Below, piece by piece: positions 1 to 45,563 of a stretch of DNA of 64,000 bases (position 1 is its first letter; the number at the start of each line of letters is the position of its first letter). The position numbers were made by a program, and so were the translations under genes. The stretch is from Bacteroidetes bacterium ADurb.Bin012 (GTDB lineage: Bacteria; Bacteroidota; Bacteroidia; Bacteroidales; TTA-H9), in assembly GCA_002071415.1 (NCBI GenBank), contig MWFC01000001.1, positions 1-64,000 of the forward strand. The letters are read 5' to 3'. Under the pieces are notes generated by a model, which saw only the letters and a list, made by a program, of their open reading frames with translations, ran no database searches and was not told the DNA's origin.

Positions 1-479
1 CCAATCCCTGTACCTGCATCGGAACTTGCTACCACTGAAGGGCTCATTTGCAACACATAAGGTAAATCTCGTCCAATGTTCAATTTCCTTATCTCCTTCC
101 GATGTAGTTCGCTAAAAGTAGTGGGAACCGAAATATCTACCCTGGTGGATTTTACGATTACTTCTTCCTGCATGTGAGCTAATGTCTGTAATTTTATTTT
201 TAAAAAGAGATTCCTGTCTAATTTAATGGTATCAAAATATGACTCATATCCTACATAACTGATTTTTAAAGGATAATTACCCGAAGGAAGTTTTTTGATG
301 GAAAAATATCCGACGTCGTTGGTTACAGCTCCATAAGGAGAATTCAATATAACAACATTGGCTCCAACGAGACTTTGCCCGCTCGAGGCGTCACAAACCG
401 TCCCACTCAGCATATACTGAGACATGGCCACATAGGGGACAAGCGCCATGAAAATGAAAATAAAAGTTTTTTTGAACAT
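1..479 (-). CDS. TonB-dependent outer-membrane receptor, N-terminal part (probable thiamin uptake)
   Basis: The gene reads leftwards off the window; about 159 residues from the ATG at 477-479 are visible. They show a hydrophobic signal peptide (MFKKTFIFIFMALV) ending near MSQ, then a carboxypeptidase-regulatory-like beta-sandwich (about residues 20-100; motifs SGTVCDASSGQ, GANVVI, VTNDVGYFSI, GYESY). A plug-domain start follows (EVIVKSTR, then DLPYVLQMSPSVV). This is the layout of Bacteroidota TonB-dependent receptors. A TPP riboswitch lies immediately upstream on the same strand, so the likely cargo is thiamin or a thiamin precursor; the substrate is inferred only from that regulation. The barrel is outside the window, so neither integrity nor a SusD-like partner can be judged. 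Confidence 0.9.
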   Translation of the reverse strand, partial: MFKKTFIFIFMALVPYVAMSQYMLSGTVCDASSGQSLVGANVVILNSPYGAVTNDVGYFSIKKLPSGNYPLKISYVGYESYFDTIKLDRNLFLKIKLQTLAHMQEEVIVKSTRVDISVPTTFSELHRKEIRKLNIGRDLPYVLQMSPSVVASSDAGTGI

Positions 480-42744: not shown

Positions 42745-45324
42745 TTAAAATTTTATTTCGAGGCTTAACTTAAAGGTTCTTCCCGGTCCCCAGTAGCCCC
42801 TGAAGGTTTCCTTATTATGATGAATTCCATCGTTTCCACGGGTGATGTACTCCACATCGAAAAGGTTATTGCAAGCCAGCGCCAGCTCAGTTTCCATTCC
42901 CATCATTTCGAAATGAAATCCCAAGCGAACATCGGTTAATCCATATCCGGGAATTCGCCATGACTGAGCATCTTCGGGTTTTGTCCTTAGGGCGGGGTCG
43001 AAATCGGCGTAAAATCGGTCGTTCCAGATATAAGACAGGTGAAAATCGAATTGATTCAGGAAATGAATCAGCGCCGAAACTCCGGCTTGAAACTGTGGCG
43101 CATCACCCACATACAAACCTTCCGCATAAACCTTTACACTGTCGATCAACTGATTTTCGTTGTTGAATATTTTTGCATCCACATTGTTTTGCCATTTCCA
43201 GTTCCCAACAGAAACAAAAGCCGAAAGATTCAGATTAGATTTCAATGCCGAATAATGGGCTTCGGCTTCTATACCCTCATGCAATGCATCCAGACCTGTA
43301 ACCAGCGAGCGGGTTGTAGTTTGATTATCGATCAGTTTATATTCGTTTGAAAGGAGTGATTTGTCCTGCCATGCCACATAATATCCCGCGAGGTTGAGGT
43401 TGAAGTCGTTTTTTTGCCATCCCATTCCAACTTCTAGCGAAGTAATTTTTTCGTTCTTGAGGTTTTGAGCTGGATTATTGTTAAAGTTGGGGAACACGAA
43501 CTTGTAGTAAGGGGCTCTCGAAGTATAACCTCCGTTGAAGTAAACTCGTAATTGTGAGTTGAATGCATACGCCATGCCGGCTTTCAGCTCGTATCCGGTT
43601 TTATTGACGATGGAACTTGCCGGATGTGTGGGATAATTGTAGCGATCCTCTCTTTGATAGGTATTGTAGTTGAGTCCGAATGATAGCAATCCCGACAGAT
43701 CGCCTTGTTCATAATTTGCCCGTACAAAGCCCGAAGCCAGTCCAACAACAGCCCCGTTATCAATTCTCGTCGTGTCTCCTCTTTTTTTCAAAATGTTTCT
43801 TCCCTGCCGACTTTCAATAGCCCAAGCATAATCATCGATAAAATATTGTGCTCCCAGCAAGTCGTAAATTTCTTCCCATAGCCAGCTTTTGAAATAACGT
43901 GCATGGATTCCGGTAGTGAGAATTATTTGATCGTTAGGTTTATAACTATAAGCCGAGATAAGTCCTGCCCAGTAATGTGAAGCAAGGAAAAGGGTTTGGG
44001 AGTTTTTTGCAAAATGGCGCAATGTATCGCCTTGGGGTGTAATATAGATATCCTGATGGGTGAGATTATCTCTGGCAATGGCATCCCAGTCGACTTGGCC
44101 CGAAGGCGTCTGATATTCGAATACGTTTTTCCCACTGAAGTTTTCGGCCCAATTGCCTCCTCCTTTCCCATAGCTGAAATAGGCCGAAGTTGAAAGAGAG
44201 GCTTTATTACTGATAGTCCAATAGTGGTTTAAATTTAAAAGTGGCTTATGATAGAAGTTCTCGGCAAGATTCTTGCGTATTCCTCCATAAGTTCCCCAAT
44301 CCTTATTGTACTTGATTCCTCTTTCTTCGATTTCGGCATACGATAACAAAGTGCTTCTTTGTCCATGTCGTTCAGGTGAACCAATAGCATTGAAGGTGAA
44401 AAGGTGAGATGGATTCAATTGTTTGCTGATAGATAAATAATAAGCAAATCCATTTACTTGAGTTCCATCTACATAGCCTTGTCCTGTGGTATGCGATCCC
44501 ATAAAGCTGATGCTTAATCCATTGGGGTTGATTCCGCTAGAATATTTAAAAGAAGTACGTTGCAGTCCATAATCCGTTATTGAAGTGCTTAACATTCCTC
44601 CAGTTAATGAAGGATCTGCATTGGTAATAATATTGATAGTGCCTCCTAGTGAATTATTCACCAAAACTGAGGCTCCTATCCCTTTCTGAACTTGAATATT
44701 TTCAGTGGCCTCTTGCAGCCCGTCCCAATTCGACCAATATACCAGTCCATTTTCAACGCTTCCAATAGGAATTCCATTCAGGGTCAAAGCAAGGTTTTCT
44801 TGTTTGAAACCTCTGATATTGATGGCTGCATCACCTACCCCACCGCCTGTACGGCTCGAGTAAACCCCAGGCATCATCCGCATGATTTCTGGATAGGAAT
44901 GATCCCCTGAAATTTGATGAATCATTTTTCGATTGATGGAATTTACGGTTACGGGATCGGTTTGTTCGCGTACAGTAAAAGCCAGGATATTTACAGGTGA
45001 AAGGTTGATTACCAATCGCCTTAAAGATATTTCGTTCAATTTAATGATATTTCCTTGGCTTGCATCGAAATTGATCGTTTCGTTTTGGAATCCAATATGG
45101 CTGATGAGCAAACGCCCTTTTTCCATTTTGGTGATCAGCGTAAACTCACCCTTTGAGTTGCTTACTGTGCCTTCTCCAGTCGATTCCACAGTGATGTCGG
45201 TACCCGATAAGGGTTGATGCGTGTCGAAGTCGCAAATTCTACCTTGAATAACCGTTTGAGCAAATGCCTGCCAACTGAATGCAAGCATGATCAGAGTGAA
45301 TAAATAAGAAATTTGTGTTTTCAT
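42745..45324 (-). CDS. TonB-dependent outer-membrane receptor under FMN riboswitch control (probable flavin uptake)
   Basis: 859 residues from the ATG at 45324. The reading frame stays open to 45459 but that stretch is riboswitch and attenuator RNA. Signal peptide MKTQISYLFTLIMLAFSWQAFAQ, a CarboxypepD_reg-like domain (TVIQGRICDFDTHQPLSG to about residue 105), a plug domain with GDHSYPEIMRMMPGVYSS, NIRGFKQENLALTLNGIPIG and NNSLGGTINIIT, then a 22-strand-type barrel ending FKLSLEIKF. The upstream FMN riboswitch implies transport of riboflavin or a flavin, powered by TonB from the inner membrane. The substrate is inferred only from regulation. Confidence 0.92.
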   Translation of the reverse strand: MKTQISYLFTLIMLAFSWQAFAQTVIQGRICDFDTHQPLSGTDITVESTGEGTVSNSKGEFTLITKMEKGRLLISHIGFQNETINFDASQGNIIKLNEISLRRLVINLSPVNILAFTVREQTDPVTVNSINRKMIHQISGDHSYPEIMRMMPGVYSSRTGGGVGDAAINIRGFKQENLALTLNGIPIGSVENGLVYWSNWDGLQEATENIQVQKGIGASVLVNNSLGGTINIITNADPSLTGGMLSTSITDYGLQRTSFKYSSGINPNGLSISFMGSHTTGQGYVDGTQVNGFAYYLSISKQLNPSHLFTFNAIGSPERHGQRSTLLSYAEIEERGIKYNKDWGTYGGIRKNLAENFYHKPLLNLNHYWTISNKASLSTSAYFSYGKGGGNWAENFSGKNVFEYQTPSGQVDWDAIARDNLTHQDIYITPQGDTLRHFAKNSQTLFLASHYWAGLISAYSYKPNDQIILTTGIHARYFKSWLWEEIYDLLGAQYFIDDYAWAIESRQGRNILKKRGDTTRIDNGAVVGLASGFVRANYEQGDLSGLLSFGLNYNTYQREDRYNYPTHPASSIVNKTGYELKAGMAYAFNSQLRVYFNGGYTSRAPYYKFVFPNFNNNPAQNLKNEKITSLEVGMGWQKNDFNLNLAGYYVAWQDKSLLSNEYKLIDNQTTTRSLVTGLDALHEGIEAEAHYSALKSNLNLSAFVSVGNWKWQNNVDAKIFNNENQLIDSVKVYAEGLYVGDAPQFQAGVSALIHFLNQFDFHLSYIWNDRFYADFDPALRTKPEDAQSWRIPGYGLTDVRLGFHFEMMGMETELALACNNLFDVEYITRGNDGIHHNKETFRGYWGPGRTFKLSLEIKF

Positions 45325-45343
45325 ATTGCTTGATAATAAAAAT

Positions 45344-45363
45344 GCCCTGATTTGTTTCAGGGC
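45344..45363 (-). terminator. Attenuator hairpin downstream of the FMN riboswitch
   Basis: On the minus strand a 7-bp stem, GCCCTGA / TCAGGGC, is followed by ATTTTTATTATC. It lies between the aptamer and the receptor ATG (20 bases upstream of it). The arm sequence also resembles the aptamer's closing stem (TTCAGGGC), so mutually exclusive pairing is possible. This is the likely expression platform. Confidence 0.65.
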
Positions 45364-45412
45364 AGAATGATCTTTACCGAGCAATGGAGCACCAAAAGAA
45401 TAGTGCGTTTGA

Positions 45413-45527
45413 CATTTCTTCTTCCATCCAGACTTTGACTGTCGGTACCGGAGTTTCACCGGTTCAGTCCCTTTGGGGAGTTGCGGACTTTACCGCCGAT
45501 CGGGAATTTCACCCTGCCCTGAAGAAA
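45413..45527 (-). promoter_or_regulatory. FMN riboswitch (RFN element)
   Basis: Read on the minus strand the conserved RFN blocks appear in order: TTCAGGGCAGGGTGAAATTC, CCGATCGGCGGTAAAGTCCG, CCGGTGAAACTCCGGTACCG and ACAGTCAAAGTCTGGATGG, ending AAGAAG. This is the FMN-binding aptamer. It is transcribed from a promoter whose start falls at the aptamer's first bases, and the only gene downstream is the TonB receptor. Confidence 0.96.
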
Positions 45528-45534
45528 ATCGCTG

Positions 45535-45563
45535 CAAAAATAAAGAAATTTTATTGCCAACAA
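45535..45563 (-). promoter_or_regulatory. Promoter of the FMN riboswitch transcript
   Basis: The minus strand reads TTG (45561-45563), 18 bases, then TATTTTTG (45535-45542). Both match the Bacteroidota consensus and predict a start near 45528, at the first base of the aptamer. Confidence 0.65.

Follow-up and report, generated by a model that had tools for sequence, protein, structure and literature searches.

Outer-membrane receptors under riboswitch control are known for vitamin B12 and thiamine. B12 and TPP riboswitches precede btuB-like receptors (PMC2211319, PMC5317091), and OMthi is described as a thiamine TonB receptor under a riboswitch (PMC6977713). For FMN riboswitches, a survey of 842 elements in 1133 genomes lists no outer-membrane receptor among the targets; it mentions two genes with no evident link to flavins, and the terms 'TonB', 'outer membrane' and 'Bacteroid' do not occur in its text (PMC4418817). 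The same survey names the riboflavin importers RibU, PnuX/RibM, RibN, ImpX, RfnT, RibXY, RibZ and RfuABCD, many of them under FMN riboswitches, and it agrees with the original prediction for the locus treated here in placing FMN riboswitches usually at riboflavin synthesis or transport genes (PMC4418817). Bacteroidaceae have no FMN riboswitch, as stated in PMC3766115. The words 'riboflavin' and 'flavin' are absent from a 2024 review on TonB-dependent transporters (PMC11658791). No description of an RFN-controlled TonB receptor was found among titles, beginnings of abstracts and open papers, including PMC12405394, PMC6593275, PMC13209645 and PMC6041382, and an earlier mention elsewhere is possible. 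The passage of flavins across the outer membrane of Gram-negative auxotrophs appears to have been little studied.

The locus analysed here lies in a window of 64,000 nucleotides (positions 1 to 64,000 of contig MWFC01000001.1) from Bacteroidetes bacterium ADurb.Bin012. Its riboswitch has the full-length aptamer and the terminator-type platform of known FMN riboswitches, but controls an outer-membrane receptor, P0001. With a probability of about 0.85, P0001 is best explained as an outer-membrane importer through which riboflavin auxotrophs take up flavins and which FMN represses, and hence as part of a flavin-starvation switch whose substrate and riboswitch function we infer.

Promoter, riboswitch and receptor gene in the window

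The aptamer, the promoter motif, the terminator and the identity of the gene were established by computation. A covariance-model scan of the window gave a match to RF00050 at 45412-45530 on the minus strand (111.2 bits, E 4.8e-25; gathering score 66.2) spanning the full-length model (1-138), which confirmed the FMN riboswitch (RFN element) of the original prediction as well as its coordinates. This copy is the sole one, since no second FMN riboswitch was detected in the whole genome (2.64 Mb in 154 contigs, 97.7% complete). Upstream, the minus-strand sequence reads TTG (45563-45561) and, after 18 bases, TATTTTTG (45542-45535), the whole feature covering 45535..45563. We take TAnnTTTG to be the Bacteroidota -7 motif and the arrangement of TTG, 18 bases and TATTTTTG to fit the Bacteroidota promoter pattern. 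The last G of TATTTTTG precedes the aptamer's first base (45530) by five positions, and the predicted transcription start falls no more than a few bases from that base; the earlier claim of a promoter in register with the aptamer was thereby borne out, and the motif recurs in relatives.

The attenuator stem expected behind the aptamer was also recovered, as an intrinsic terminator at 45343..45364 on the minus strand with an 8-bp stem, a 6-nt loop and a T run (TGCCCTGA-N6-TCAGGGCA-TTTTT, from 45364 to 45343). Folded in isolation it reached -13.9 kcal/mol (z -4.3), and its 3' arm is a copy of aptamer sequence. About 19 nt separate it from the ATG at 45324, at which the gene of P0001 begins (859 aa, 42745..45324, minus strand, stop at 42745), a TonB-dependent outer-membrane receptor and predicted flavin importer. 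A longer frame of 904 aa (GTG, 45459) was rejected; the ATG is the likely start because the start codon of the longer frame falls inside the aptamer. The next gene downstream is dnaA, starting 542 nt past the P0001 stop, and the description of the receptor as a lone gene thus holds for the window.

Membership of P0001 among the TonB-dependent receptors (plug and TonB barrel) was supported by the Pfam domains found over cut-off, namely CarbopepD_reg_2, Plug and TonB_dep_Rec_b-barrel, and by fold matches to TonB receptors in the PDB. Its AlphaFold2 model, computed from a thin alignment of 12 rows, has a TonB receptor fold (pLDDT 73, pTM 0.68), and Foldseek ranked PqqU with PQQ first in the PDB, closely trailed by FhuA, FoxA, Fiu and FecA. 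A sequence search of the PDB with the single protein gave no match; with the receptor alignment, TonB receptors were matched, mostly over the plug. The modelled fold supports the class of TonB receptors, not a ligand.

A TPP riboswitch (72.7 bits) was also observed at 533-631 of the window, on the minus strand. It precedes the start of a receptor-like ORF (3-479, minus strand) which is cut by the contig end and has, by eye, a CarboxypepD-like N-terminus, making it a second riboswitch-controlled receptor in the window.

Receptor-linked FMN riboswitches and riboflavin genes

Analysis of 198 genomes of the order gave RF00050 matches in 41, of which 40 were over the cut-off, with one element each; the remaining genome, G136, was excluded at 26.6 bits. 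According to frame heuristics, the first gene downstream of these 40 elements was an outer-membrane receptor in 16 genomes, a ribD operon in 16 and ribB in 8. The rib genes were named by eye, with PF00885 and PF00925 positions checked where they lay in the same operon and the ribB label resting on inspection by eye only. Fifteen of the 16 receptors were P0001 or its homologues (34-47% identity). A protein search of the same sample showed that all close relatives of P0001 (at least 43% identity) were RFN-controlled, and that no riboswitch accompanied 20 distant homologues (32-37% identity), among them one (L154) with almost no upstream sequence. The sixteenth receptor, in G148 (element at G148:C157:5160-5279, L058), appeared by eye to be Oar-like; it lies directly behind its FMN riboswitch and is truncated where the contig stops, and its genome has no RibH.

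The link between riboswitch and receptor extends over the family. With an alignment of 12 receptors, 219 relatives were retrieved from named genomes. We kept the best 80, most of which carry titles of Bacteroidales or Bacteroidetes metagenome assemblies, and scanned them upstream with a covariance model derived from the order's 16 elements. An FMN element was found directly upstream in 75 of these 80 loci, a proportion that is favoured by closeness because the 80 are the best of 219. Nine of the loci (L074, L075, L077, L079, L081, L083, L085, L105 and L113) are shared with the order sample, so the 80 loci and the 16 order genomes are not independent. Four of the five misses (L098, L109, L129 and L147) lie at contig ends, with no more than 101 bases ahead of the match; in the fifth, L122, no element was detected in 2137 upstream bases, and an Rfam scan was also negative. 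Re-scanning 16 loci with Rfam confirmed all 12 complete elements, the rest being L088, in which the element is cut, and three of the misses. The RFN-controlled receptors that the original prediction had proposed to look for in relatives were therefore found, both in the order (16/40) and at homologous loci (75/80).

Among 395 genomes sampled over the phylum, 28 had an element over the cut-off, including that of the window. The other 27 elements precede, by eye, ribB or ribD and none precedes a receptor; judging from these, the association of the element with a receptor looks confined to this branch.

The riboflavin genes divided along the same line. RibH (PF00885) was absent from all 16 genomes with an RFN-controlled receptor and present in all 24 with RFN-controlled rib genes (Fisher 1.6e-11 when only RFN genomes are compared and 1.6e-13 over the whole sample, in which 160 of 198 genomes have RibH). 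RibA was over the cut-off in none of the 16 receptor genomes versus all 16 rib controls tested, and RibF was found in all 32. The pattern of riboflavin uptake, with synthesis missing and flavokinase/FAD synthase kept, was hence seen in 16/16 receptor genomes. From the absence of RibH and RibA, the window genome and similar genomes are predicted to be riboflavin auxotrophs which, given the presence of RibF, could still convert imported riboflavin to FMN and FAD. Likewise, 48 of 50 additional receptor genomes had no RibH; these 50 were taken from the 80 loci, lie outside the order sample (thus omitting the nine shared loci) and were chosen before the RibH result.

Three observations stand beside this pattern. 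In the two exceptions among the 50, G638 (L120) and G230 (L136), an RFN-controlled receptor and RibH are both present; these may be prototrophs with uptake or else mixed assemblies. Among the 38 order genomes without RibH, 22 also have no RFN-controlled receptor. A RibA-like piece of 53 positions with two stops, below the cut-off, lies at G126:C43:1247-1402 and is perhaps a remnant of lost riboflavin synthesis.

The leader as a predicted switch

The minimum-energy fold of the whole 206-nt window leader without ligand (-66.9 kcal/mol, z -3.45) contains 15 contiguous pairs joining aptamer positions 45523-45509 to positions 45370-45356. The predicted antiterminator thus has its 5' strand inside the aptamer (45509..45523, minus strand) and its 3' strand overlapping the terminator 5' arm (45356..45370, minus strand), and this 15-bp helix is incompatible both with the aptamer's own pairing and with the terminator, whose 5' arm it takes. 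An expression platform coupled to the aptamer, as expected of an RF00050 member, was accordingly found in the form of the terminator and the antiterminator predicted by folding. Because the antiterminator excludes aptamer and terminator, read-through is predicted at low FMN and termination when FMN is bound, and FMN should turn the receptor gene off. RNA polymerase would start at the first bases of the aptamer; at low cytoplasmic FMN, the aptamer 5' strand UUCAGGGCAGGGUGA would pair with the sequence before and within the terminator 5' arm, and the antiterminator so formed would let transcription continue into the receptor gene. Upon binding of FMN, which we infer together with the direction of the switch, the 5' strand would be retained in the aptamer, the terminator would form and the receptor would not be made.

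Leader statistics were based on 75 leaders, those of the window and 74 relatives, with L088 left out because its element is cut by the contig end; L104, with 38 nt upstream, was also left out of the promoter count. The motif TAnnTTTG occurred at most 45 nt from the aptamer in 73 of 74 leaders (200 shuffles: mean 3.7, maximum 9), and in 44 of these 73 its last G lay 4-8 bases before the aptamer. Terminators of at least 7 pairs were found in 39/75 leaders (30 dinucleotide shuffles: mean 0.5, maximum 2). A complement of at least 7 nt to the first 24 bases of the aptamer was present in 48/75 leaders (shuffles: mean 8.7, maximum 15), and the aptamer variants TTC[A/G]GGGC changed together with CCC[T/C]G in the leader (30:5 versus 3:15, Fisher 1.3e-6). 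A tree-aware count of this co-change gave 2-4 independent concordant pairs and 0-1 discordant, too few for significance, and pairs between aptamer and leader in minimum-energy folds were not above those of shuffled leaders (34/75 versus 31.4). The antiterminator was for these reasons rejected as a family-wide rule; it is convincing for the window and unproven for the receptor family.

Substrate, neighbouring genes and known systems

In the proposed pathway, the receptor would import riboflavin (alternatively FMN or FAD) through the outer membrane, powered by TonB, a putative inner-membrane carrier would move the flavin inward, and RibF would make FMN and FAD. The cell would depend on the receptor because at least two riboflavin biosynthesis enzymes are missing. 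Both the use of TonB and the flavin substrate are presumed for P0001. Flavin uptake, which had been suggested from regulation, gains support from the co-occurrence of riboswitch and receptor at 75 of the best 80 among 219 relatives, from the absence of RibH and RibA with RibF kept in 16/16 genomes and the repeated absence of RibH (48/50), and from promoters and terminators that recur in relatives far above shuffles.

The carrier was sought among two Pfam families. PF03825 was rejected as the partner, being patchy (above its cut-off in 5/16 receptor genomes, G134, G050, G126, G119 and G005, versus 9/16 controls) and absent from the window genome; PF04973 (PnuC-like) was rejected as well, as it occurs in 15/16 receptor genomes and 11/16 controls and is not separable from thiamine and nicotinamide carriers. 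No inner-membrane flavin carrier was consequently assigned among PF03825 and PF04973 candidates. In one genome, G126, a NupG-like MFS gene (PF03825) lies 23 nt behind the RFN-controlled receptor (G126:C40, L046 1501-5311), and its product is a candidate inner-membrane flavin carrier. At seven loci (L091, L092, L095, L097, L104, L110 and L115), a co-directional protein of about 472 aa is encoded 9-36 nt behind the receptor; it is possibly a co-transcribed partner, and the representative scanned (L091) had no Pfam match.

Genes further behind the receptor raise the possibility that flavin nucleotides are the main substrate. At 42 of 79 loci, the next gene belongs to one cluster of large receptor-type proteins, a scanned representative of which has OMP_b-brl_4, CarboxypepD_reg and Plug domains; others are distant P0001 paralogues. 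Behind this second receptor there is often a type I phosphodiesterase/nucleotide pyrophosphatase (NPP, Pfam PF01663): 40 regions of relatives were fetched from 50 NPP matches, leaving out weak matches, one duplicate and a few others, and 23 of the 40 have RFN element, receptor, second receptor-type gene and NPP one after another, all in the same direction except in L174, whose middle gene has the opposite orientation. NPP enzymes are able to cleave FAD; loci of this kind may therefore salvage FAD, and an NPP behind the receptor may permit the use of external FAD. A receptor that serves mainly flavin nucleotides (FAD) and forms a nucleotide-scavenging unit together with NPP and the second receptor is a variant of the flavin importer reading which we regard as tentative. 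The window genome's own NPP stands alone on another contig (L190), and the stretches of 145-680 nt that follow the receptor are possible sites of separate promoters. An NPP also follows three of the 20 distant receptors without riboswitch, all three in genomes with RibH, and the association may therefore belong to nucleotide metabolism in general. It is likewise somewhat doubtful, though possible, that these receptors constitute a dedicated outer-membrane flavin importer family, the first to be described, which in many relatives would head a surface FAD-salvage locus of riboswitch, receptor, second receptor and an NPP that splits FAD outside the cytoplasm. On that reading, the loss of riboflavin synthesis in these uncultured Bacteroidales would depend on community flavins imported via the receptor.

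It is improbable, but deserves consideration, that P0001 imports a non-flavin compound, heme or an iron complex for example, whose need tracks flavin status. The best NCBIfam matches of P0001 are indeed heme/hemoglobin receptor families, far below their cut-offs (heme receptor TIGR01785, 75.5 of 316.85 bits), and TonB receptor folds do not tell substrates. Against such a substrate stand the RibH split of 0/16 versus 24/24, with RibF kept, and the usual connection of FMN riboswitches with riboflavin synthesis and transport (PMC4418817). Finally, most of the genomes compared are metagenome assemblies and the receptor genomes are related, but an apparent auxotrophy due to assembly gaps, with an association by accident of shared ancestry, is very unlikely, given that completeness is 97.7% for the window genome and 92-99% for all but one of the 15 other receptor genomes (76% in the remaining one), that RibA and RibH are both missing and RibF found in all 16, and that RibH loss was repeated in 48/50 further genomes while the RFN-rib genomes are similar drafts.

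The flavin importer reading appears to point to a so far undescribed outer-membrane entry route for vitamin B2, for which the locus gives a protein family, its regulation and a likely substrate. It also predicts riboflavin auxotrophy for a mostly uncultured Bacteroidales group, and vitamin cross-feeding is therefore testable.

Among known systems, PqqU (YncD) is, according to PMC11658791, a TonB receptor for PQQ, a small aromatic redox cofactor. It is the best fold match to P0001, at 14% identity, and because all TonB receptors score alike this likeness is an analogy only. Compared with RibU and the other importers named at the outset, P0001 would act before such a carrier, at the outer membrane; to our knowledge, none of those importers is an outer-membrane beta-barrel. 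By analogy, BtuB and OMthi resemble P0001 as receptors for a vitamin whose cofactor form is sensed by the controlling riboswitch. P0001 differs from them in that its sensor is an FMN riboswitch, in that it is not a BtuB by NCBIfam cut-offs (TIGR01779, 41.5 of 599.7 bits; NF007926, 24.6 of 836 bits) and in that no pnuT-like carrier adjoins it in the window. With P0001, riboswitch-controlled vitamin receptors, so far of B12 and thiamine, would be extended to a third vitamin, the flavins.
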